This document shows, in pieces, positions 4,798 through 20,732 of a DNA stretch of 26,096 nt. How positions within the stretch are numbered: position 1 is the first letter of the stretch; each line of letters starts with the position of its first letter. The notes beneath the pieces are model-generated. The model was not told the origin of the DNA and searched no databases. It was given only the letters and a program-made list of their open reading frames with translations. Made by a program: the position numbers and the translations under genes. This stretch comes from a virus: positions 1 to 26,096 of IMG/VR virus record IMGVR_UViG_3300007542_000163, one strand, 5' to 3'.

Positions 4798-4962
4798 ATG
4801 AGCTTATTTAATAGAGTATTTGAAAATTTAATTGAAAGAAGAGATAGGTTACTATCAGGGAAAATAAATTGTATTCCTTGGGGGTTACCTAGATTTGAAA
4901 ATGAATTACCTGGAATAGAGAAAGGTAAATATTACTTGTTAACAGCAAATAGTAAAGTGGGT
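4798..4962 (+). CDS. dnaB: DnaB-type replicative helicase, exon 1 (residues 1-55)
   Basis: The first exon encodes 55 residues ending with LLTANSKVG, the first part of the Walker A loop. The unspliced frame continues only six codons (RICPYN) to a TAG at 4981-4983. The missing Lys-Thr of the P-loop is found at 7311, where the frame reads KTQITDWLFF. Joining after GGT (4960-4962) restores ANSKVGKTQ. The exon ends in GGGT, which pairs with GCCC at 4970-4973 to form P1, with the conserved U-G pair at the splice site. The encoded part matches the linker and start of the RecA-like core of phage DnaB proteins lacking the N-terminal domain. Confidence 0.85.
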
Positions 4963-5060
4963 AGAATTTGCCCCTATAATTAGTAATAATTATAGCAAAC
5001 TCAGAATCCTAGAAATAGGGGTTAATTAAAATTAGCTAACGGGGAAAACCTTTAATACTT

Positions 5061-5360
5061 ATGAAAAAAACAACCACAGCCTGTTGTGCATTATGTCAAT
5101 TAAATGATGTAAATGATGCAACCACACTTGAGCATTTTGAATATGCTCTTGCTAAACTTAAAAAACAAAAGGAATCAAATACTGAAGTTGGTATTACTAC
5201 AGGTAATGGTCAAACAGCAGTATTTGTGATTGCATCTCCTGGAGAAAATATTTTAAAATCAAATCTTAAAAAATTAGGATTTGAAGCTAAACATGTTTTT
5301 GAAAGAAGAAAAGGATATCCAACAACAGGAGATTTACAAATGTATATTAAAAATCTATAA
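5061..5360 (+). CDS. phage-like protein of unknown function inside intron P5
   Basis: Encodes 99 residues. An N-terminal Cys cluster (about residues 8-12) precedes a helix rich in Lys and Leu. The C-terminal half reads VFVIASPGENILKSNLKKLGF, then FERRKGYPTTGDLQMYIKNL. This looks like a small alpha/beta protein of the kind scattered through phage genomes rather than an intron-borne endonuclease. The ATG sits in the 5' strand of intron stem P5 (5056-5062), directly after the core segment CGGGGAAAACC. It precedes the next gene by one base. No function can be given. It may be cargo captured by the intron, translated from unspliced RNA or from a separate transcript. Confidence 0.65.
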   Translation: MKKTTTACCALCQLNDVNDATTLEHFEYALAKLKKQKESNTEVGITTGNGQTAVFVIASPGENILKSNLKKLGFEAKHVFERRKGYPTTGDLQMYIKNL

Positions 5361-5361
5361 A

Positions 5362-5922
5362 ATGAGAGAACATTTAAAATGGGCAGATGTATCATATACC
5401 GTAATAAAGGAAGATGGTAAATCAAGAAGTAAATTTCATGAGTCTTGTTTTGGATATATTAGAGATTATAAAGGTAGATCAAAACTTGCATCAATTATAC
5501 TAAATGATATAAATTGTGCTATAACTATGGAATATAGAGATTTCTATCTTCAATATATTAGTGATATGTTATGTCTTGAAAGTAAAATTTTAGAAAATGG
5601 ATTTAAATTTAAAGCATCAGATATAAATCATAAAAACTTATTAGTATTAAGTTTATTAAGATTTTTATTTGAAAATATGGGGTGTTTAAATCCTCATCTT
5701 GATGTAGTAAATTTGTTTTTAAAACCATTAAGAGATGATGAATGTCCATATACAGATAAACTTGAAAGATATTGCTATTTTTATAGTTTAATACCTCAAG
5801 ATGGTTATTGGCATGATAGTCATTGTTGGAAACCTAAAAGAACTGCAATTAAATCTACAAAAGATTATTTAGAATGTAAAGAATTGTGGAATGTTAATTC
5901 ATTTTTTGAAAAACAACAATAA
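5362..5922 (+). CDS. unknown protein inside intron P5, weakly similar to the 8589 gene product
   Basis: Encodes 186 residues from the ATG at 5362, chosen because it lies one base after the preceding stop; an earlier in-frame ATG at 5281 would overlap that gene extensively. The protein starts MREH and contains an FGYIRDYKG segment, a hydrophobic helix NLLVLSLLRFLFENMG and a Cys/His/Trp-rich C-terminal part (YWHDSHCWKP). The product of the gene at 8589 also starts MREH and has a comparable IRD segment and NLVLLNFIRMIW helix, so the two may be distant paralogs. No catalytic motif is recognised. It lies in the loop of intron stem P5. Confidence 0.65.
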   Translation: MREHLKWADVSYTVIKEDGKSRSKFHESCFGYIRDYKGRSKLASIILNDINCAITMEYRDFYLQYISDMLCLESKILENGFKFKASDINHKNLLVLSLLRFLFENMGCLNPHLDVVNLFLKPLRDDECPYTDKLERYCYFYSLIPQDGYWHDSHCWKPKRTAIKSTKDYLECKELWNVNSFFEKQQ

Positions 5923-5923
5923 T

Positions 5924-6094
5924 ATGAGTAATAAAGAAAATCCCGTGCCGTCACTTGATAATATAATAAAAGCTGCAATTTATACACTTAATAATATACC
6001 TAATACTCCTAATGTAGGACCAAAAGGTGAATCAAGTTATGAAGTTATAAAAAGTTTAGAAATATATTTACAAAACGGTGTAGAGACTAAATAA
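5924..6094 (+). CDS. 57-residue ORF overlapping intron core elements P5', P4', P6 and P7
   Basis: Encodes 57 residues (ATG at 5924, TAA at 6092-6094) with a protein-like composition: an amphipathic helix, an NTPNVGPKGESSYEV turn region and a second helix. The same bases supply intron pairings: 5924-5936 for P5', 5941-5946 for P4', 5947-5951 and 6075-6079 for P6, and 6085-6089 for the 5' strand of P7. Coding and ribozyme constraints would therefore coincide, as known for some T4 intron ORFs that run into the core. At this AT content a chance open frame of this length is uncommon but not impossible. Function is unknown. Confidence 0.5.
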   Translation: MSNKENPVPSLDNIIKAAIYTLNNIPNTPNVGPKGESSYEVIKSLEIYLQNGVETK

Positions 6095-6110
6095 AATTAA
6101 AATATATACA

Positions 6111-6734
6111 ATGAAAAAGAAATATATGGGAAAATATACCAAAAAACAATTATCAATAATAATTGGAATGGTATTAGGAGATAGTTATATAACTAAATTT
6201 AGAGAAAAAAGAACAAATTCATATTTAAGTACACAACATTCTATAAAACAATTAGATTACGTAGAATATAAAATGAATTTACTTAAATCATTAGGATTTG
6301 AAATATCAAAATTATATGATGTTTCTATAATATTTAAATCTATTAGATTTGATTGTAGAAATCCTCATCTATTTAATCAATTGCGTAAAACTTTATATCC
6401 TTGTAATAATAAAATCATTAAAAGAAAATGGTTAAATTATTTAGATGAAAAAGGATTAGCAATATGGTTTATGGATGATGGTTCTTTAACAAAAAGAGGT
6501 AAAAGTGGTTATATGTCATTACATACTAATTCTTTTAATAAAAAAGAACATTATATAATTATAAAATATTTTAAACAACAATGGAAACTTAATCCTATTT
6601 TGAGGGTAGTTAAAAGAAAAGACCAAAAACAATCTTATTTTTTAACATTTAATCCTAATGAAACTCGAAATTTAATTAATATAATTAAGCCATATATTTG
6701 TAAATCAATGTTATATAAGGTAGATTTTATGTGA
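6111..6734 (+). CDS. LAGLIDADG homing endonuclease, intron-encoded
   Basis: Encodes 207 residues with two LAGLIDADG helices: IIIGMVLGDSYI at about 16-27 (catalytic D24) and GLAIWFMDDGSL at about 115-126 (D122). Basic, aromatic-rich beta segments between and after them would contact DNA. The size fits a single-chain two-motif enzyme. It should cut intron-lacking helicase alleles near the insertion site so that repair copies the intron. It lies between the P7 5' strand and P3', enclosed by a stem ATAAAATT (6091-6098) with GATTTTAT (6723-6730); group IA introns carry extra stems at this place. The P3', P8 and P7' segments follow directly after the stop. Both acidic residues are intact, so it is probably active. 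Confidence 0.93.
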   Translation: MKKKYMGKYTKKQLSIIIGMVLGDSYITKFREKRTNSYLSTQHSIKQLDYVEYKMNLLKSLGFEISKLYDVSIIFKSIRFDCRNPHLFNQLRKTLYPCNNKIIKRKWLNYLDEKGLAIWFMDDGSLTKRGKSGYMSLHTNSFNKKEHYIIIKYFKQQWKLNPILRVVKRKDQKQSYFLTFNPNETRNLINIIKPYICKSMLYKVDFM

Positions 6735-6815
6735 AAAGAGTTTCCAATTTATATTGGAAAATGAGATAGTCCGAACTATATGGTGACATATAGAGTTAAA
6801 CAGAAATGATTTAAC

Positions 6816-6832
6816 TTATCAAATAAATTAGA
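6816..6832 (+). repeat. left arm of 17-bp perfect inverted repeat (intron P9.2)
   Basis: TTATCAAATAAATTAGA is the exact reverse complement of 7282-7298. The two arms enclose the ORF 6844-7311 and the right arm ends 12 bases before the 3' splice site. The first base may instead close P9.1. This position and length fit an extended P9.2 stem of the group I intron. Confidence 0.85.
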
Positions 6833-6843
6833 AATTTAAAAAT

Positions 6844-7311
6844 ATGAAAAAAAAGGATATTAAAAAACAAATAGAACCAGCTAAACTTATTATTTTATCA
6901 TATTTAAATGCTAAGTATTTAAAAATTCTTGATACAGACATTAGATATGATAATGAAAGTTACGATTTATTACCTCGTCAACAAGATAAAATATTTATAA
7001 AAGGATATACTGGTGTAACAGTAGATTATATTCGTAAATATTTATTTAATAATAAAGTTAATAAAGATATATTAATATCAATATTAATGGATTTATTAAA
7101 AGAAGAAAAAATTAATGTAATTTATTGTCATAATGTTAAAAGATTAGTATTTGAAAATAGAAAATATACTAGACATTCTTTATTTACTTTAAAATATTTT
7201 ATAGATTATATGGTAAATAATGAAGGATATAACTATTATGATGAAGCTAAAAAGTTTTATAAAGTATATAGTATTTTAAAATCTAATTTATTTGATAATA
7301 ACAATGATTGA
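6844..7311 (+). CDS. unknown 155-residue protein in intron P9.2; its stop spans the 3' splice site
   Basis: Encodes 155 residues, basic at the N-terminus (KKKDIKKQ) and mostly helical, with Tyr-rich helices in the C-terminal half. There is no LAGLIDADG, GIY-YIG or HNH motif, so it is not an obvious homing endonuclease. A maturase-like RNA-binding role would be conceivable because of its basic charge. The ORF is bracketed by the arms of a 17-bp perfect inverted repeat. Its TGA (7309-7311) uses the last two intron bases and the first exon 2 base, so the ORF is complete only in unspliced RNA. A helix YIRKYLFNN with a following leucine-rich helix vaguely recalls the unknown proteins encoded at 5362 and 8589. 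Confidence 0.6.
   Translation: MKKKDIKKQIEPAKLIILSYLNAKYLKILDTDIRYDNESYDLLPRQQDKIFIKGYTGVTVDYIRKYLFNNKVNKDILISILMDLLKEEKINVIYCHNVKRLVFENRKYTRHSLFTLKYFIDYMVNNEGYNYYDEAKKFYKVYSILKSNLFDNNND
7282..7298 (+). repeat. right arm of 17-bp perfect inverted repeat (intron P9.2)
   Basis: TCTAATTTATTTGATAA pairs without mismatch with 6816-6832. It lies inside the last codons of the ORF at 6844-7311 and immediately upstream of the terminal intron sequence ending in G7310, bringing the 3' splice site close to the core. Confidence 0.85.
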
Positions 7312-8252
7312 AAACACAAATAACCGATTGGTTATTTTTTCTCAATACTATTCAACAAGTAATAGATAATAAATTAAATATTAAACTTAAAATATTTTAT
7401 TTTTCTTTAGAAATGTCAAAAGAAGAGAAAATGTTGGCTGCATTCTCAAACATCCTCTATATAAAAGAAGGAGTTAGAATTGCACCAAAAGATCTTCGTA
7501 GTACTAAAGCTGATAAAATTTTAAGTGAAGAACATTTACAACTAATATCAAAATATCAAGATTATTTCGCTAGAATAGAAGAAATAGTATTATTTATAGA
7601 TGATATTAGAAATCCTACAGGAATATATAAATTTGTAAGAGAATATGCTTATGCCAATGGCACTCAGCATAGAAAAAGCATAGAAATGAATGGGTCGACT
7701 ATAGAAATCGATGATTACTATGAAGCAAATGATCCAGAAGAATATGTTATGATTATGATTGACCATATAAGTTTAATTTCCACAGAAATGCAAGGTGGAA
7801 AACAAATGAACTTACATGAATCAATTGTAAAACTATCTTCTGATTATCTTATAAAACTTAGAAATAAGTATAATTATATTCCTGTAGTGATACAACAACA
7901 AGCATCATCTCAAGAATCTGTAGAAAATATGAAAGTCGGTAGATTAAAACCTACAATGGATGGCTTAGGTGATTGTAAACTCACACAGAGAGATGCTAAT
8001 GTTATATTAGGATTGTTTAGTCCTTTTAGACATGAAATAAAAGAATACTATGGATATGATATTACTTTCTTTAAAGATAATATTAGATTTTTAGAAATTC
8101 TAGGTGGTAGAGAAGGTGGTGGTGGAACAACTTGTCCATTATATTTTGATGGAGCAGTTAATTATTTTACTGAATTACCTCTACCAAGTGATGATAAAAG
8201 TTTAACAAAATTTGTTAATTTTATTAAAACAATAATAAGAAAAGACATATAA
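7311..8252 (+). CDS. dnaB: DnaB-type replicative helicase, exon 2 (residues 56-368)
   Basis: Encodes 313 residues beginning with KTQ, which completes the Walker A loop begun in exon 1. The spliced product has 368 residues, essentially a RecA-like C-terminal domain of the SF4 helicase family without the DnaB N-terminal domain. Visible motifs are H1a FYFSLEMSKEE, Walker B VMIMIDHISLIS, the H3-like IPVVIQQQASSQ and the H4-like RDANVILGLFSPFRHE. It would form the hexameric ring that unwinds the fork. A frame from TTG at 7308 is open, but it would begin inside the P-loop and give a nonfunctional enzyme, so splicing is needed. The stop is 2 bases before the next ATG. Confidence 0.92.
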   Translation, partial: KTQITDWLFFLNTIQQVIDNKLNIKLKIFYFSLEMSKEEKMLAAFSNILYIKEGVRIAPKDLRSTKADKILSEEHLQLISKYQDYFARIEEIVLFIDDIRNPTGIYKFVREYAYANGTQHRKSIEMNGSTIEIDDYYEANDPEEYVMIMIDHISLISTEMQGGKQMNLHESIVKLSSDYLIKLRNKYNYIPVVIQQQASSQESVENMKVGRLKPTMDGLGDCKLTQRDANVILGLFSPFRHEIKEYYGYDITFFKDNIRFLEILGGREGGGGTTCPLYFDGAVNYFTELPLPSDDKSLTKFVNFIKTIIRKDI

Positions 8253-9621: not shown

Positions 9622-10092
9622 ATGAATAAACAAGAAGTAAACAGTTTAGAAAAATTAGAATTATATTATAATAAATGTAGAAAAATAAGACTTGAGAATA
9701 CTACTTATAATGATATTCAAAAAGTTATTGATCAAGTTATTGAAGGTAAAGAAAAAACTTATTTTTCTAAAGGTGGTCATCAATGTGGACATGGTCATTA
9801 TAGATCATTAGATGATGTTATTAAAGTTTGTAAATATTATTTTCCAGAATATTCTCTTAAACAAATATTAATAGAAATTTTAAATTATTCAACTAGTAAA
9901 TCTAATATTGCTAAATATCCAAGACCTTTATATTTACAATTTTGTTATTGTGCAAATATAAGAAAAGATAATTTTAGAGGGTTTGCTACTTGGAATTATG
10001 ATAGTTTTGAAAAAAGTTTACATAGAATTAATATATTAGATCAAGGTTTTATAAATTATAATATTACTTTACAAGAAATAATAAATAATTAA
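9622..10092 (+). CDS. unknown 156-residue protein with a Cys/His-rich loop
   Basis: Encodes 156 residues. A helical N-terminal third leads into the loop GGHQCGHGHY (about 52-61), whose His and Cys residues could bind a metal ion. A helix RSLDDVIKVCKYYF and a second aromatic part (LYLQFCYCANIRKDNF) follow. The general make-up (a helix after a polar loop, then a Cys/aromatic segment) recalls the unknown proteins encoded at 5362 and 8589, though similarity is weak. No known family is recognised. It is the last gene before a short G-rich gap leading to the Sak4-like gene. Confidence 0.6.
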   Translation: MNKQEVNSLEKLELYYNKCRKIRLENTTYNDIQKVIDQVIEGKEKTYFSKGGHQCGHGHYRSLDDVIKVCKYYFPEYSLKQILIEILNYSTSKSNIAKYPRPLYLQFCYCANIRKDNFRGFATWNYDSFEKSLHRINILDQGFINYNITLQEIINN

Positions 10093-12575: not shown

Positions 12576-12962
12576 ATGTTAGTAGCAGTATATGGTAGTT
12601 TAAGAAAAACATTATCTAATCATAGAGTATTAGATGGTGCAAAATATATGGGTAATTACGAAAGTGAACCTATTTTTAGTATGTTTGATGTTGGAGCTTA
12701 TCCTGCAATCAAAGAAAGTGGTAATACTTCTATAGTATTGGAAATTTATAGAATTACTGATGATATATTATCACGTTTAGATACATTAGAAGGTTTTGAT
12801 GTAGATGAACCAGATAGTTGTTATTATGTAAGAACAGTAATTGAAACTCCATTTGGAGAAGCTTATATTTATACTTTTCCTCATTCTACAGATCATTATA
12901 AACAAGTACAAAACGGAGATTGGACTGAATACACAACAACAAAAGAATTTATAAATGTATAA
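12576..12962 (+). CDS. gamma-glutamyl cyclotransferase-like (AIG2/GGCT) protein
   Basis: Encodes 128 residues of the BtrG/GGCT fold. The substrate-binding loop VYGSLR is at 4-9, and the catalytic Glu is expected in LDTLEGFD (about 68-75). Later elements are YYVRTVIETPFGEAYIYTF. Members cleave gamma-glutamyl amines to release pyroglutamate and a free amine; BtrG does so to remove a gamma-glutamyl protecting group in an antibiotic pathway. It opens a six-gene run of amide-forming and amide-breaking enzymes and overlaps the ATP-grasp gene by 8 bases. I infer that it removes a gamma-glutamyl group made by the cluster. Length and motifs look complete. Confidence 0.87.
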   Translation: MLVAVYGSLRKTLSNHRVLDGAKYMGNYESEPIFSMFDVGAYPAIKESGNTSIVLEIYRITDDILSRLDTLEGFDVDEPDSCYYVRTVIETPFGEAYIYTFPHSTDHYKQVQNGDWTEYTTTKEFINV

Positions 12963-13785
12963 ATATTTTAGACCTAATATTAGAAGTAGACATCCTTCAC
13001 ATGCACCTTTAAAACAAAGAGGTACATTTCCATTATTTCCATTTAAATCTGTAGTAAGATTTGGTTCTTTAACAGAGTTTAATGATGGTAGAATAGAACT
13101 TAATACAGTTGAAGCTATTAAAAATTCATCTAGTAAATTATTAATGAAAAAATGTTTTACTAATAATATGGTTAAAACTGCAGATTGGTGGTTATATAAT
13201 ACTGATGAAGGTATTTTTAATTTACCAAATGAAGAAGGTGTAGAAATGTCTCAATTACCTTTTCCTATTATATCTAAATCTTATTTTGGTAGTAGAAATC
13301 AAGGTAATAAAAAACACGATAACAAAGAATCTTTAGAAGCTTGGTTAGTAGGTAAAAACTTAGATAATTATCTTTTTGAAAAATATTATAATTATGCAAG
13401 AGAATATAGATTACATATCAGTAAAAATGGTTGTTTCTATACTTGTAGAAAAATGATTAAAGAAGATACGCCTCAAGAAGACAGATGGTTCAGAAATGAT
13501 GAACATTGTGTATGGATATTAGAAGAAAATGAAACTTTTGATAAACCTATAAATTGGGATAAAGTAATTGAAGAATCAGTAAAAGCATTACAATCTGTTG
13601 GTTTAGATTTTGGTGCTGTAGATTTAAGAATACAGTCTTCTAGAGATAAAAATGATGAAATTAGAAAAGATCCTGATTTTATCATTGTAGAAATTAATTC
13701 AGCTCCATCATTTGGAGATGTAACATTAGGTAAATATAAAACAGAATTAACAAAATTATTAACACAAAAATATAATGGAGAATAA
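12955..13785 (+). CDS. ATP-grasp ligase
   Basis: Encodes 276 residues. The N-terminal part carries an SVVRFGSLT segment (32-40). The central region FEKYYNYAREYRLHI (about 141-155) provides the strand pair around ATP. The C-terminal half shows the metal-binding signature: DFGAVDLRI (218-226) and IIVEINSAPS (243-252, E246 and N248). These are the ATP-grasp catalytic elements, which activate a carboxylate as acyl phosphate for attack by an amine. The substrate is unknown. The gene overlaps its neighbours by 8 and 11 bases, a strong sign of coupled translation. A phage cluster combining ATP-grasp, COOH-NH2 ligase and amidotransferase was described by Iyer and colleagues (2009). Confidence 0.82.
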   Translation: MYKYFRPNIRSRHPSHAPLKQRGTFPLFPFKSVVRFGSLTEFNDGRIELNTVEAIKNSSSKLLMKKCFTNNMVKTADWWLYNTDEGIFNLPNEEGVEMSQLPFPIISKSYFGSRNQGNKKHDNKESLEAWLVGKNLDNYLFEKYYNYAREYRLHISKNGCFYTCRKMIKEDTPQEDRWFRNDEHCVWILEENETFDKPINWDKVIEESVKALQSVGLDFGAVDLRIQSSRDKNDEIRKDPDFIIVEINSAPSFGDVTLGKYKTELTKLLTQKYNGE

Positions 13786-14440
13786 AAGAAAATTAAAAAT
13801 AGGAGTGGATCGTGGTTTTTCTAGTGCATATAAATCTTTTTTAGAAGAAATATTTGAAATAGAAGCTGTCCCTTTTAAAACTTTATTAAAAACTGGTGAA
13901 AATGTATCTCTATTAGTATTTACAGGTGGAGAAGATGTAACACCTGCATATTATAATGAAGATGCAGGTAGTAAAACATTTTCTAACAATACTAGGGACA
14001 AAGAAGAATTTGATATAGCACGTATGTATAATCATTTACCTAAATTAGGTATTTGTAGAGGTTCACAATTTTTAACTGTTTTAGCAGGTGGTAAACTTGT
14101 TCAACATGTTAATGGTCATGCTAATGGAAATCATTTAATTGAAACCTCTAATAGACAAACTTTTGAAATTACATCTACTCATCATCAAATGATGTTTCCT
14201 TATATATTACCTTATACAAGTTATGAAGTAATAGCATGGGCAGATACTTTTAAAAGTGATACATATTTAAATGGTGCTAATCAAGAAATGGAAATTCCTG
14301 AAATGTTTTTAGAACCAGAAATTATATATTACAAAAATAAAAGAGCATTAGCTATTCAAGGTCATCCTGAAGCTTCTAATTGCCCAAATAGTACAAAAAA
14401 GTATATTTTAAAATTAATAGAACAATATTTAACAAAATAA
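13775..14440 (+). CDS. class I glutamine amidotransferase-like hydrolase (peptidase C26)
   Basis: Encodes 221 residues. The nucleophile elbow is LGICRGSQ (91-98, C94), and the remaining triad is in IQGHPEA (194-200, H197 and E199). The oxyanion part FTGGEDVTP lies at 49-57 and the STHHQMM segment at about 134-140. This pattern fits gamma-glutamyl-gamma-aminobutyrate hydrolase relatives (PuuD) more than synthetase-bound glutaminases. It could either cleave a gamma-glutamyl amide or supply ammonia. It overlaps the ATP-grasp gene by 11 bases and lies 12 bases before the COOH-NH2 ligase gene. All catalytic residues are present. Confidence 0.88.
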   Translation: MENKRKLKIGVDRGFSSAYKSFLEEIFEIEAVPFKTLLKTGENVSLLVFTGGEDVTPAYYNEDAGSKTFSNNTRDKEEFDIARMYNHLPKLGICRGSQFLTVLAGGKLVQHVNGHANGNHLIETSNRQTFEITSTHHQMMFPYILPYTSYEVIAWADTFKSDTYLNGANQEMEIPEMFLEPEIIYYKNKRALAIQGHPEASNCPNSTKKYILKLIEQYLTK

Positions 14441-14452
14441 AAATAAATAGAC

Positions 14453-15262
14453 ATGGTAAAAAATATTCTTATAGGAGCTGATCCAGAATTATTCTTAGAA
14501 AAAGATGGAGAAATTATATCAGCAGAAGGTTATATCGGTGGAACTAAAAATGAACCTATCCCAATTAGTGATGAAGGACATGCAATACAAGAAGATAATG
14601 TTTTGGTAGAATTTAATATTCCTGCATCTGAATCAGCAGAGGATTTTATAGCCAACATTAATTTTGTTAAAGATTATTTAAACGCCTTAGTAGAATTACA
14701 AGGTTGTAAATTGAATAATAGTGCTTCAGCAGTTATAGATAAAAAATATCTACAAACTGCACAAGCTAAATTATTTGGTTGTGAGCCAGATTATAATGTA
14801 TATTTAAGAGCTATGAATGAACCACCAAAAGCAGGTGGTCAATTAAGAACTTGTGGTGGTCATATTCATATTGGATATGAAAATCCATCACAAGAAGTTA
14901 GTGAAAAAATCATTTATGCTATGGATGCAGTTCTTGGTTTAGGATCTTTATTATTAGATAAAGATGATAGAAGAAAAGAAATGTATGGTAAAGCAGGTTG
15001 TTTCAGATTTAAAGATTATGGTGTTGAATATAGAACTTTATCTAATTTTTGGGTAAAAGATGATGTATCAATGGCTTGGGCATTTAATAAAACAATTGAA
15101 GCTATTGAATTAGTTAATTCTGGAATTATTGATGAATTAATTAAAAACTATGCAGATGTTATTAGAACTACTATTAATTCTAATAACAAACAAATGGCTC
15201 AAGAATTACTTTCTAAATTTGAAGTAATAAAACAAGAAAAAAAATTAATTACAAAAAACTAA
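14453..15262 (+). CDS. COOH-NH2 ligase, phiEco32-type amidoligase
   Basis: Encodes 269 residues of the glutamine-synthetase-like amidoligase group (Pfam COOH-NH2_lig type). Motifs in order: IGADPELF (7-14), GGTKNEPIP (29-37), QEDNVLVEFNIP (46-57), RTCGGHIHIGY (132-142) and EYRTLSNFW (192-200). The Glu and His residues in them would bind metal and ATP, as in glutamine synthetase. The enzyme should join a carboxyl to an amino group using ATP. It stands between the two glutamine amidotransferase genes. In phiEco32 and related phages, the same ligase family accompanies ATP-grasp and class II amidotransferase genes. Substrates are not known. Confidence 0.88.
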   Translation: MVKNILIGADPELFLEKDGEIISAEGYIGGTKNEPIPISDEGHAIQEDNVLVEFNIPASESAEDFIANINFVKDYLNALVELQGCKLNNSASAVIDKKYLQTAQAKLFGCEPDYNVYLRAMNEPPKAGGQLRTCGGHIHIGYENPSQEVSEKIIYAMDAVLGLGSLLLDKDDRRKEMYGKAGCFRFKDYGVEYRTLSNFWVKDDVSMAWAFNKTIEAIELVNSGIIDELIKNYADVIRTTINSNNKQMAQELLSKFEVIKQEKKLITKN

Positions 15263-15268
15263 AATAAA

Positions 15269-17170
15269 ATGATCAATATAATACTAAGTATACTAATAAT
15301 TCATATGTTTAGGATAATAGTGTTTAAAGTACAATATACCACATTAAATTGTGGTATATTTGCTTGGGCAGGAAAAGATCCTAAACAATTTAATAAAAAT
15401 AAATTAGATATTTTAGGAATATTTAATGAATCAAGGGGAACACATTCTTGTGGAATTTCTAAAGATGGTGACATTGTTATAGGAATTGATAAAAATAAAG
15501 TGTATAAAGATTTCTTATCTAATACAAATTATGATGCTCCTACTAAAATTCCAGTAGTTATTGGTCATACAAGATTAAGTACTTTTGGTGAACATACTCT
15601 TGATAATGCTCATCCATTTGGATATGGTGAATTAAATAAACATTATGAATTTGTTGGAGTTCATAATGGAACTTTATTAAACCATTTAGAACTTGCTAAA
15701 TTAAATAATGTATCTAATATAGCTACTGTTATTGAAAATAATATTACAAAAACTAGAAATAAAATAGATAGTGAAGTATTATTAGAATGTATCTTTAAAA
15801 GTAAAAATTTTAATGTATTATCTCAATATAATGGTGCTGCTGCAGTTGTATTTACTAATTTACAACAACCAAATGTTATTTATTGTTTTAGAGGAGAATC
15901 TAGAAAAATTAATACATTAGAAGCAACATCTGATGAACGACCTTTATTTTATTATAAAGAAAACAAAAATAGTTTATTTATATCATCTATGGAAAATAGT
16001 TTATATGCTATAGGTGGAACTAAAAAAACTGTATTTGAATTTGAAACTAATAAAGTATATAAGATTACAGATGGTGATATTACAACAGTTATTAAATATA
16101 AAATAGATAGAAAAGATAATTATCAAACTTATTCTAGTTATACTCCATGGAAAAAACCAGAATATAATGAATATTTAGATGATGATGATTGGGAAGATTA
16201 TCGTGGTTATAAAAATAACCTTCCAATAAATCGTGCAAAATTACCAGAACAAAAAGAATTTGTATTTGATAAAATTAATGCAATAAATCTAAATAAAGAA
16301 GTATATTTTACAAAATCTAGTAATTTTGAAAGTAATGTATATTTTAATAAATTAAGATATTGGAGAAATGGACATTTAATTACTGGATGTTTTACTTTTG
16401 TACCTCAATTTGGATTTTATTTCTTAGGACACGGTTTGAAAGAAAGTGATGATACATTTTATGGACTTGTTAATAAAATGTTTTTTGGAAAAGATTTTGT
16501 TAATCATGCAAATCTTTTATCTCCAGAAAATATTGCAAAATCAACGGTTCCTTTTAAAAGTAATGCTAAACATGAAATTAAATTTCCAAGTGTATATTAT
16601 TTTTATAAGGGAGTAAGATTGCAAACAGCTTCTGATTATATTGCTTGTTTACAAATGGATAAAGAATTTGAAGCACCTTTTGATTGGAGATCCTTATCTC
16701 AATGTGCAGCTCATCCTATTATTGAAATTTCTGAAGATAAAGGTAGTAATGCTGGTAATATTGTATTAAAATTAGATAAACCAGTTACAGATATAGTATG
16801 TCCATTAGGTTCTGAAAAAATATATTCTTTTGAAGATGGTAGATGTATTAAAATTACAGCAGTTACTAAAAATACAAAAAGTTTACAAGAAGTAGCAGAT
16901 GCTATAATAGCTCATGAAAATAAAGTTATAGAAACAGAATTTTCAATAGAAGATGAAGAGGATACTAAAATTATCACTCTTAATCTAGATGATGATTTAT
17001 TGGAAAAAGATTTTAATGATATCTTTAAAGATAATTTAATGAAATTTCCAATGTATATTAAAAGATTAGAAAAATATAAAGATAATCCTAAAGCAAAAGA
17101 TGCTTTACTAATTTTGGAAAAGTTTTTATGTAAATCAACAAAATTAATGGCTTACGATTTAAAAGAATAA
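15269..17170 (+). CDS. class II glutamine amidotransferase with N-terminal extension
   Basis: Encodes 633 residues from the ATG at 15269. The Ntn-type glutaminase domain begins at CGIFAWAG, with the nucleophile Cys at residue 28. It continues with GHTRLST (99-105), NAHPF (113-117) and HNGTL (132-136). It should release ammonia from glutamine for an amide-forming step. In this family Cys must become the free N-terminus, normally by removing Met alone. Here no start codon stands immediately before it (the codon is AAT), so 27 residues from 15269, or 15 from the alternative ATG at 15305, would have to be cut off, as in PurF propeptides. The C-terminal 350 residues carry no recognised synthetase domain and end in an acidic helical region. 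It lies 6 bases after the ligase gene. Confidence 0.85.
   Translation: MINIILSILIIHMFRIIVFKVQYTTLNCGIFAWAGKDPKQFNKNKLDILGIFNESRGTHSCGISKDGDIVIGIDKNKVYKDFLSNTNYDAPTKIPVVIGHTRLSTFGEHTLDNAHPFGYGELNKHYEFVGVHNGTLLNHLELAKLNNVSNIATVIENNITKTRNKIDSEVLLECIFKSKNFNVLSQYNGAAAVVFTNLQQPNVIYCFRGESRKINTLEATSDERPLFYYKENKNSLFISSMENSLYAIGGTKKTVFEFETNKVYKITDGDITTVIKYKIDRKDNYQTYSSYTPWKKPEYNEYLDDDDWEDYRGYKNNLPINRAKLPEQKEFVFDKINAINLNKEVYFTKSSNFESNVYFNKLRYWRNGHLITGCFTFVPQFGFYFLGHGLKESDDTFYGLVNKMFFGKDFVNHANLLSPENIAKSTVPFKSNAKHEIKFPSVYYFYKGVRLQTASDYIACLQMDKEFEAPFDWRSLSQCAAHPIIEISEDKGSNAGNIVLKLDKPVTDIVCPLGSEKIYSFEDGRCIKITAVTKNTKSLQEVADAIIAHENKVIETEFSIEDEEDTKIITLNLDDDLLEKDFNDIFKDNLMKFPMYIKRLEKYKDNPKAKDALLILEKFLCKSTKLMAYDLKE
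15333..15360 (+). repeat. 11-bp perfect inverted repeat over the amidotransferase nucleophile codon
   Basis: AATATACCACA (15333-15343) and TGTGGTATATT (15350-15360) are exact reverse complements around TTAAAT. The second arm begins with the Cys codon TGT. In RNA this would be a stable hairpin near the start of the gene. It could act as an operator, an attenuator or a translation brake, or mark an alternative start architecture. Confidence 0.6.
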
Positions 17171-17181
17171 ATAAGATAAAT

Positions 17182-18921
17182 ATGGACGAAAATAAAGTTA
17201 TTACCGTTGATGGTAGCGAAGAACTACGTGTTAAATGTAGAAATATAAAAGGAATCTTTTATAGAATAGGAGATTTATCTATAGAGAATTCAGGTCACTG
17301 TTATCTTATTAATGATAAATTTTATAAATTTGATACAGGATATATTGTTTTTGATCATTATTTAGGACAATATGTTATTAAAAATAATAATAATTTATCA
17401 GAAGGAGTTGTTTCTTTTGAAGATAAAAATACTCCAGTAATTGGATTCTTTTCAAACATTAATGCTAATTTTACTAGAATTAATCATAAAGGGTCAGAAT
17501 GGAATTGTATTAATGATGATATATTATTAAATACTAATTTTATTGAAGATTTGAAATCAGGAGTATTTCATCATAGACAGTCTTTACCAAGTATGAGATT
17601 CATTAATATTGGAAATGTACCACAAGGTTTAAAAAATACATTACAATATGATTCACGTAATTTAACTAAAGATAGAAGTCTTATATATGATAAATTATAT
17701 AATCCAAAATATAGTCAACAAATTGAAGACTATGGTGATGTAGTTAAAGATTTAAGTTTTGGATTAGAATTTGAAACTATTAATGGTTTTGTACCAACAA
17801 GAATCTGTGATAGATTAGGATTAATTCCTCTAAAAGATGGTAGTATTCCAGGATTAGAGTATGTAACTATTCCATTATCAGGTAAAAAAGGTATGCAAAC
17901 TGTTATAGATAGTGTAAAAGAACTGTCAAGAAGAACTACTTATAATGATGATTGTTCTTTACATCTTCATATTGGTAATATTCCAAGAACAGAAGAGTTT
18001 TTCTTAGCATTATATAAAATATTAGTATTAATGGAACAACCAATGTATGAATTATTTCCAGTTTATAAGAAATATAATTATGGTGTTAAAAGAAAACATT
18101 ATACTAAACCTTTTTCATTGAATGAAACTATTTATTTAATGGACCCAGTAATTAATAAATCAAATATCAAAAAGAATTTTGGTATATTGTATAATTATTT
18201 ATCAATGGGACAAGATTATGCTAATGTTGATAATGATCTAAAAAATGTTCATAGCCATCCATCTGATCCAAATGGTGATAGTAAATGGAATATTAGAACA
18301 AGATATCATTGGGTTAATATGATTCCTCTATTATTTGGAAACAAACAAACAATAGAATTTAGATTGCATACGCCTACTTACGATATTAATAAAATTATGA
18401 ATTATTTAGTAATTTGTACATCTTTAATTAATTATGTTAAAGATAATACAGATAAAATATTGACAGATTTTAAATCTGTTAGTACACTAAATTTAACTGA
18501 TTTATTATATGGTAGTATACCAAAAGATACAAGAGGTGATAATAAATATGCAAGACTTCTAAATAGTGTATATGGTTACATAAATGATCGTCGAGATTTT
18601 ATGTTTAATAATGCTAAAAGAGGTAATATTAAAGCTAATGAAGATGAATTTGTAGTTAGAAAAGGTATTTGGGATACAAATATGATTATAATTAAAAATC
18701 CACAACTTAAAATTATAAATGAAGATTTAGGACGTATTAATATATGGGATGTTCCTAGACCAGCATATAGACACGTACAAGCTGGACGAGGAGGTTTAGA
18801 ACAATATCTTAATGGATTAGATCCAGTTAATGAGCTCCTTAGACAACAAATAGATAATCTTGAAATAGAAGAACCTATTTTTCATGATGACGATGATGAT
18901 GATGAAAATGAAGGATTTTAA
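17182..18921 (+). CDS. amidoligase (Amidoligase_2 family) with long N-terminal domain
   Basis: Encodes 579 residues. The glutamine-synthetase-like core starts near residue 190: LSFGLEFET (191-199), DGSIPGLEYVTIPL (219-232), CSLHLHIGN (258-266) and QTIEFRLHTPT (389-399). These are the signature motifs of Pfam PF12224, whose Glu and His residues bind metal and ATP. The N-terminal 185 residues are separate and contain Cys/Trp-bearing strands without a known domain; they may bind the substrate. The C-terminus ends in an acidic tail HDDDDDDENEGF. It is the third ligase of the cluster, 11 bases after the class II amidotransferase. It may use the freed ammonia or join a second amine. Substrates are unknown. 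Confidence 0.87.
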   Translation: MDENKVITVDGSEELRVKCRNIKGIFYRIGDLSIENSGHCYLINDKFYKFDTGYIVFDHYLGQYVIKNNNNLSEGVVSFEDKNTPVIGFFSNINANFTRINHKGSEWNCINDDILLNTNFIEDLKSGVFHHRQSLPSMRFINIGNVPQGLKNTLQYDSRNLTKDRSLIYDKLYNPKYSQQIEDYGDVVKDLSFGLEFETINGFVPTRICDRLGLIPLKDGSIPGLEYVTIPLSGKKGMQTVIDSVKELSRRTTYNDDCSLHLHIGNIPRTEEFFLALYKILVLMEQPMYELFPVYKKYNYGVKRKHYTKPFSLNETIYLMDPVINKSNIKKNFGILYNYLSMGQDYANVDNDLKNVHSHPSDPNGDSKWNIRTRYHWVNMIPLLFGNKQTIEFRLHTPTYDINKIMNYLVICTSLINYVKDNTDKILTDFKSVSTLNLTDLLYGSIPKDTRGDNKYARLLNSVYGYINDRRDFMFNNAKRGNIKANEDEFVVRKGIWDTNMIIIKNPQLKIINEDLGRINIWDVPRPAYRHVQAGRGGLEQYLNGLDPVNELLRQQIDNLEIEEPIFHDDDDDDENEGF

Positions 18922-19665: not shown

Positions 19666-20133
19666 ATGATATGGATACCAGGTTCAGTACCTAGTCTAAA
19701 AAATAGTAAAGTTAAAACTAATAGAGGGATATTCAGTTCTCCTACGGTAAATAAATATCTTAGGAGTATTGGTATCCAATCTTTTAGTTCTAAACATAAA
19801 ATAGTAAAAGGATATGTTGATAAATCACGTCCTAATCAGATTGAACTTATTAGAGAACAATTTGAACAAATGAAAGTAGGAAAAGAAAACCCAATATTTA
19901 TAGGTTATCATCAAGTTAGAAAAACAAAAGCTTTATTTGATTTTAGTAATAGTGTAGAAATAATACAAGATTTATTAACTGCACATGATTTAATAGAAGA
20001 TGATAATGTACAATTTGTATTTCCAATACCAATGTCTATAACTGGAGAATTACCTACTTTACAAAATTTAAGAACAAAACAATGGTACTCTGTTGATAAA
20101 GAAAATCCTGGTGTGTGGCTAAAGGTGTTCTAA
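19666..20133 (+). CDS. RusA-type Holliday junction resolvase
   Basis: Encodes 155 residues. The N-terminus IWIPGSVPSLKNSK resembles the IPGxPxSKNS opening of RusA proteins. The catalytic acidic residues appear in LFDFSNSVEIIQDLL (90-104; D92 and D102) and LIEDDNVQ (109-116; D112 and D113), the usual D-x-(D/S)-N ... D ... DD pattern of this family. The enzyme would be a dimeric nuclease that resolves four-way junctions arising in recombination-dependent replication, in line with the Sak4-like ATPase and SSB. Its stop lies 4 bases inside the end of the antisense homing endonuclease gene, which may mark the insertion point of that element. Confidence 0.8.
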   Translation: MIWIPGSVPSLKNSKVKTNRGIFSSPTVNKYLRSIGIQSFSSKHKIVKGYVDKSRPNQIELIREQFEQMKVGKENPIFIGYHQVRKTKALFDFSNSVEIIQDLLTAHDLIEDDNVQFVFPIPMSITGELPTLQNLRTKQWYSVDKENPGVWLKVF

Positions 20134-20732
20134 ATAAACTTTAATATATTTTTAGTAAACATTATTAATTCTTCTTTTGATGCAGAATTTTTCATAGAAT
20201 TAGCTAGATAAGATATAATCATTACATTTCCAGATATATAACCTTTGGAGTTATCTATTCTGTCTAGTGATGCTGTATTTTTAGTAGTTCCAATTGAGAA
20301 ATAATCTAACTTAATATTAAGAATAGGACAATAAATGGGTAATGTAAAATCTTCAATGGTTAAAGAGAAATTAATATTTCTTTGTTTTGCTCGACTTCTA
20401 CTTCTTATTATTATTCTGGATTTTAATTTTTGTTCAGATGTATTATATTCTATTCTTTTATAAGGAGAGCTAGGTATTCCTAATTCCCTCCTGATTGTAC
20501 AAATATGTACATTACTTATTGGAAGAAGATTAGAAATTTGTTTATTAGACATATTATTAGATACCATATCCTTTATTTGAATATGATATCTATCAATTAG
20601 TTTATTAACATTTAAGTTATTCATTCTTCTCCATTTACCAACGGTATATGGTTTAGAATTAGTTTCTAAGGCTATTGATTTATCATTATAGCCTAGGTCA
20701 TAAAATTTTTGGAATAGTTTTATATTTTTCAT
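20130..20732 (-). CDS. HNH-type homing endonuclease, free-standing, antisense
   Basis: Encodes 200 residues and is the only gene on the minus strand. The N-terminal half has two helix-turn-helix-like repeats: LGYNDKSIALETNSKPYTV and a second around NKQISNLLPISNVHICTIRRELG. A basic linker RIIIRSRSRAKQR follows. The C-terminal nuclease part reads YCPILNIKLDY (134-144) and ASLDRIDNSKGYISGNVMII (154-173), the pattern of phage HNH endonucleases of the SLDRI-D-GY-GNV type. The orientation opposite to all neighbours and its own promoter-like element suggest a mobile gene that entered between RusA and the 20814 gene. It could cut cognate sites in related phages. Catalytic residues look intact. Confidence 0.85.
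   Translation of the reverse strand: MKNIKLFQKFYDLGYNDKSIALETNSKPYTVGKWRRMNNLNVNKLIDRYHIQIKDMVSNNMSNKQISNLLPISNVHICTIRRELGIPSSPYKRIEYNTSEQKLKSRIIIRSRSRAKQRNINFSLTIEDFTLPIYCPILNIKLDYFSIGTTKNTASLDRIDNSKGYISGNVMIISYLANSMKNSASKEELIMFTKNILKFI

Follow-up and report, generated by a model that had tools for sequence, protein, structure and literature searches.

How is a replicative helicase of a phage encoded when its gene is broken within the codons of the Walker A motif by 2,348 nucleotides (nt) that are themselves filled with other genes? This question is raised by the IMG/VR virus record IMGVR_UViG_3300007542_000163, of which positions 1 to 26,096 (26,096 nt, hereafter the window) were analysed and which comes from a crAss-like phage. 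The answer that we favour, with a probability of about 0.88, is that a group IA self-splicing intron interrupts the Walker A codons of a DnaB-type helicase gene and that local phage genes are nested in the loops of this intron.

A DnaB-type helicase gene split in its Walker A codons

The interrupted gene consists of three parts:

4798 to 4962, plus strand: helicase exon 1, 55 codons, the last one for G of the Walker A GKT; joins in frame and is continuous with exon 2 in intron-less relatives
4963 to 7310, plus strand: putative group I intron, 2348 nt, recognised by placement of P1 to P9, covariation and conservation of the site
7311 to 8252, plus strand: helicase exon 2, starting with KT of Walker A, 313 codons and a stop

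When the two exons are joined they remain in frame and give a protein of 368 residues with no internal stop, in which the join creates GKT and the DnaB_C domain is recognised (PF03796, E 2.5e-11). Replicative helicases of crAss-like phages match it at 43-49% identity along 99-100% of its length, and the best matches in GenBank are cr108_1 (49%) and, with 81% of the query covered, Cellulophaga phage phi14:2 (56%). Joined, the exons encode a single helicase of the DnaB type from a crAss-like phage.

We compared the site with 50 related helicase loci from IMG/VR, designated by L numbers below. The insertion point separates G from K in GKT (residues 55/56). The helicase runs through it uninterrupted in more than 20 of these loci; in about 20 relatives, the cultured Cellulophaga phage phi14:2 among them, an insert of 0.76-2.9 kb lies at this point or no more than a few bases from it. 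Such presence and absence at one site is a mark of mobile introns. The insertion is placed about 4 nt upstream of the window's site in L014, cr111_1 and cr112_1. On a tree of exon 2 the intron requires four changes, the location of one neighbouring gene family (g13, see below) requires one and that of another (g7) two; L013, L029, L041 and L044 were left out of this tree because an earlier label of "no intron" was wrong or exon 1 lay off the contig.

Several related arrangements were seen at this gene. In phage phi14:2 (L053, NC_021806.1 12988-16665) the insert at this site of the helicase is 2616 nt long, and GenBank lists the two helicase exons of the phage as separate genes, g024 and g029; split and nested genes in such phages can thus be annotated as unrelated proteins. 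Two tandem group I introns stand within the Walker A codons of L001 (3300-3619), L005, L006, L020, L021 and L032, separated by a micro-exon of 9 nt, AAA GTN GGT (KVG). The first intron of these pairs carries an open reading frame (ORF) of the GIY-YIG endonuclease family in 5/6 cases, and that of L001 is only 302 nt long and matches Rfam RF00028 with 99.5 bits. Further interruptions of the helicase body, with LAGLIDADG or GIY-YIG-like ORFs, are found in L043 (4876-6000), L044 (3185-4213) and L047 (2111-3110).

The ribozyme core and its loops

The elements of the core were placed as follows:

4959 to 4973, plus strand: P1, exon GGGT paired with GCCC of AGAATTTGCCC, with U.G at the 5' splice site; conserved in relatives
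4974 to 4995, plus strand: P2 hairpin with a GUAA tetraloop, a perfect 9 bp in the window; 62 of 63 pairs kept, several by compensatory changes
4997 to 5002, plus strand: P3 5' strand AAACUC, partner GAGUUU at 6738-6743; covaries in relatives
5036 to 5053, plus strand: P4 5' strand (CGGG) and P5 5' strand (CUUU), from sequence and covariation
6075 to 6091, plus strand: P6 3' strand and P7 5' strand (GACUA), the latter with partner UAGUC in 6765-6772; relatives have GACUG/CAGUC and GACUU/AAGUC
6091 to 6098, plus strand: 5' strand of a putative stem enclosing the endonuclease gene, AUAAAAUU with GAUUUUAU at 6723-6730, in the position of P7.1; the same in L005
6738 to 6772, plus strand: P3 3' strand, P8 and P7 3' strand (GAUAGUCC), from a partial RF00028 match and covariation
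6776 to 6815, plus strand: P9 hairpin (GUGA loop) and P9.1, from sequence and a fold z of -4.8 for 6735-6843

All strands of the P3-P8 and P4-P6 domains and of P7 that characterise group IA were found, and their order in the window is canonical: P1, P2, the P4 5' strand CGGG, its partner P4' CCCG, P7, P3, P8, P9 and the terminal G7310. These short strands are scattered over 1.8 kb, with 901 nt from P4 to P4' and 683 nt from P7 to P7'. The U.G pair of P1 at the 5' splice site (U4962) and the terminal G are likewise present in the relatives, and the TTT directly before GCCC can pair with AAA of exon 2 to form P10. The same elements in the same order recur in every intron of this type, at very different spacings. 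The region of P9 and P9.1 has a blastn match to an annotated Intron_gpI of Staphylococcus phage 110. Based on these features the insert is assigned to the group I (IA-type) introns.

Covariation among the relatives strengthens the placement. A single pair of P7 appears as A-U, G-C and U-A; P3 comes in four sequence types, CUCA/UGAG, UUCC/GGAA, CUCC/GGAG and CAUC/GAUG, with CUC/GAG also noted in relatives, and P4 is found as CGGG/CCCG, CGGU/GCCG and CGGU/ACCG. An initial placement of P3 beside P4 was dropped, as covariation puts its 5' strand beside P2. Alignment of the joined cores with MAFFT put P3' of the window one or two bases off, and the pairs were counted on anchored strands instead. 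Counted in this way in up to ten introns, P2 to P8 are 94-100% paired and better paired than permuted strands, with P values of 0.025 or less that serve as a guide, because the sequences are related and the strands had to be written out manually from anchored segments.

The last reservation is one of several that weigh against the favoured explanation. The core of the window is a manual assembly supported by relatives, and the Rfam search of the intact window intron returned no group I match, which is expected with such large loops. The joining region between P7 and P3' is an uncommon place for an endonuclease gene. Pairing of AUAAAAUU with GAUUUUAU, which in a group IA intron would form P7.1 and close off this gene, shows no covariation. 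Additionally, the ratios of nonsynonymous to synonymous substitutions (dN/dS, NG86) of two intron genes, orf2 and orf5, are near saturation and uninformative.

The preliminary description, made from the letters of the window, had proposed the split helicase, and its exon coordinates and 368-residue product proved exact, in agreement with full-length homologues and intron-less relatives. The group I intron and splice sites that it named are borne out by the placement of the core, by covariation and by intron-less alleles; its P1 (GGGT/GCCC), P10 (TTT/AAA) and terminal G7310 are all present. Of the checks that it suggested, alignment to intron-free relatives finds the helicase continuous through residues 55/56, as described above. 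The suggested Rfam search for Intron_gpI gave a mixed picture: besides the negative result for the intact intron, the 3' core gives a partial RF00028 match at 6700-6793 (25.2 bits, E 7e-5, on a stretch of 161 nt), and L010, whose compact intron occupies this site too, reaches 67.1 bits, where the gathering threshold is 50.

We propose that the primary transcript folds so that the short core strands meet across the gene-filled loops. Guanosine would attack after U4962, exon 1 would then attack after G7310, and the joined messenger RNA would be translated into the 368-residue helicase, while the genes in the loops would be expressed as separate cistrons.

Genes inside the intron and around the helicase

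The intron of the window holds five ORFs, which lie in the P5 loop (orf1 and orf2), across the core (orf3), between the P7 5' and P3' strands (the endonuclease gene) and in P9 (orf5):

5061 to 5360, plus strand: orf1, 99 aa, family g16, P5 loop; family in introns of further loci and outside the intron in L025, beside g7
5362 to 5922, plus strand: orf2, 186 aa, family g7, P5 loop; in 14 relatives that lack the intron a member of the family immediately follows the helicase downstream
5924 to 6094, plus strand: orf3, 56 aa, read through P5', P4', P6 and the P7 5' strand
6111 to 6734, plus strand: LAGLIDADG homing endonuclease gene (PF03161, LAGLIDADG_2, E 3e-34)
6844 to 7311, plus strand: orf5 of family g18, 155 aa, in the P9 loop; stop codon overlapping the 3' splice site, homologues inside and outside introns

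Possession of a homing endonuclease gene is a further property of mobile introns; the predicted enzyme could home the intron into intron-less alleles, and its homologue in L005 (83%) occupies the same position. Both orf1, with dN/dS of about 0.14 and 0.31, and the endonuclease gene, with 0.23, appear to be under purifying selection.

The small orf3 is not an independent insertion, since its codons include the P5', P4', P6 and P7 5' strands. An open frame that spans the core from P4' to P7, and often to P8, is present in the window (5924-6094), L001, L003, L004, L006, L007, L014, L025, L043 and L053, and in several relatives it encodes CxxC pairs (zinc-ribbon-like). The spacing from P4' to P7 is a multiple of three in 11/11 introns. 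Judging from this spacing and from the frame that runs through P8 with its CxxC pairs, the ribozyme core probably doubles as codons.

No Pfam family scored above threshold for orf1, whose predicted model weakly resembles part of an acetyltransferase fold. A PD-(D/E)XK nuclease was considered for orf5 (Pfam E 0.002) and rejected, as its predicted model is winged-helix-like and the matches are weak. PADLOC gave no match of the cargo to known defence genes, and single-sequence search of viral_contigs found no relatives of orf2 and orf5, which were found via the helicase loci only.

The gene order of the relatives shows that several families carried by the introns flank the helicase where the intron is missing. 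In 14 loci the helicase is followed downstream by g7 as the next gene. Among 20 whole records scanned g7 is a single-copy gene in each of 11, twice in the intron and nine times downstream (six adjacent, two one gene away and one, L025, further along). Close members of g13 (E below 1e-60) are likewise single-copy in each of nine records, five in the intron and four upstream; they lie directly upstream of the helicase in L036, L039 and L046 and one gene off in L016, and weaker relatives (E 1e-14 to 1e-24) occur elsewhere in four records. The g16 family is in the intron in four records and in a fifth, L025, downstream beside g7. The intron-less L016 has the order g1a-g13-g1b-helicase, and L045 and L033, which have the intron, read exon 1-[g1a]-[g33]-[g13, g1b]-exon 2. 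The g1a, g13 and g1b of L016 are reciprocal best hits of those in L045/L033, in the same order, at about 50, 36 and 32-35%. Such single-copy, local cargo with collinear orthologues means that genes beside the helicase became nested or un-nested and left little duplication behind.

On this comparison, local genes appear to have become nested in the intron or un-nested from it, in either direction. Neither simple homing nor precise intron loss can interconvert the two states. Most of the other cargo belongs to phage gene families, several of them found next to the helicase in relatives, and recombination may have nested or freed them; one route would be recombination through the repeated g1 family. 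This paralogous family is repeated around and inside the helicase intron in many relatives, and the window has a copy at 9622-10092 (profile E 8e-10). The repeats could supply homology for recombination. We also raise, as a tentative extension with the odds somewhat against it, that in this phage lineage the intron has long served to nest part of the helicase operon, so that ordinary single-copy replication-region genes sit in several loops, sometimes overprinted on the catalytic core, and helicase splicing and cargo translation compete and become coupled.

One could argue that the cargo is foreign DNA acquired and spread by a mobile intron, as in the preliminary description, which rightly recognised four ORFs besides an endonuclease and saw a mobile ribozyme moving extra phage genes into the helicase. 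The endonuclease and the variation of cargo between introns speak for it. However, g7 and close g13, two of the best-sampled cargo families, are confined as single copies to the intron or the helicase-flanking cluster, the orthologues of L016 and L045/L033 are collinear, and most introns of this type in the relatives are without a recognisable endonuclease. Thus we consider a foreign origin of the cargo unlikely.

Two other explanations deny a working intron. Insertion of genes may have broken the ribozyme, leaving a degenerate intron and a helicase that is dead or replaced; core strands up to 900 nt apart and the position of the endonuclease gene would fit, but neither the window nor 10 relatives that carry other cargo have lost the core pairs, the endonuclease is in the same position in L005, and the protein sequences of both exons are well conserved, with identities to L043 of up to about 86-91%. 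This makes degeneration very improbable. Alternatively, the helicase could be two separate polypeptides with intergenic genes between them, given that the frame of exon 1 reaches a stop at 4983 and a possible TTG start for exon 2 is present at 7308. Against this, it is Walker A itself that is broken, the join in relatives is at exactly this codon, and a covarying group I core with a conserved internal guide sequence and 3' end brackets the break, so that we consider two polypeptides very improbable as well.

Comparison with known introns and other genes of the window

The td group IA2 intron of phage T4, which encodes I-TevI, has a similar core (CGGGGAA, CCCGTGC, ATAGTC and a P9 hairpin with a GUGA-type loop). 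It has one endonuclease in one loop, whereas the five ORFs of the window intron, only one of which encodes an endonuclease, are located in or across three or four places. For I-TevI, an ORF running into the intron core is documented (PMC2988022). Reviews of Crassvirales mention many group I introns in core genes, and the survey of crAss-like phages by Yutin et al. (2021; PMC7886860), which concerns the same phage order as the window, found them via endonuclease domains in, for example, MCP, PolB, primase and an ATPase; the accessible part of that survey describes neither the DnaB site nor cargo genes. The human-gut crAss-like phages cr111_1 and cr112_1 (GenBank) are interrupted in the same Walker A region by about 0.9 kb, and the intron of cr112_1 matches RF00028 with 50.1 bits. 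Unlike in the window, these introns, at their site about 4 nt upstream, hold one GIY-YIG-type endonuclease gene and no other cargo.

Among introns with ordinary genes, the nearest precedent in the sources as far as available is the group I intron of fungal mitochondrial rnl, which hosts the non-endonuclease gene rps3 (PMC7781985). That is one gene in an organelle rRNA intron, and the window has several genes and loops in a phage protein gene, with variable content. Phage islands of homing endonuclease genes also link endonucleases with useful phage genes (PMC10448857), but these lie between free-standing endonucleases, without a ribozyme and without nesting inside a split gene; in the window no cargo is bracketed by endonuclease genes, the single one being inside the intron. 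Reviews describe the ORFs of phage group I introns as endonucleases, and the available part of a 2025 survey of Bastillevirinae introns lists these as the only intron-encoded proteins (PMC11878797). Searches of the open-access literature, incomplete in its coverage, did not turn up a phage intron in which different loops hold several genes other than endonucleases. Here a whole lineage, cultured phage included, keeps several such genes in intron loops, and the same genes flank intron-less helicases. This makes the tolerance of a ribozyme to insertions, the coupling of splicing with translation and the entry of genes into and exit from introns directly testable.

Elsewhere in the window, genes for gamma-glutamylcyclotransferase, GATase/peptidase C26, COOH-NH2 ligase, class II GATase and amidoligase follow in a run at 12576-18921, possibly a peptide- or glutamyl-modification pathway. 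The sole long ORF on the minus strand, at 20130-20732, has no Pfam match, and its end resembles HNH-type homing endonucleases by eye.
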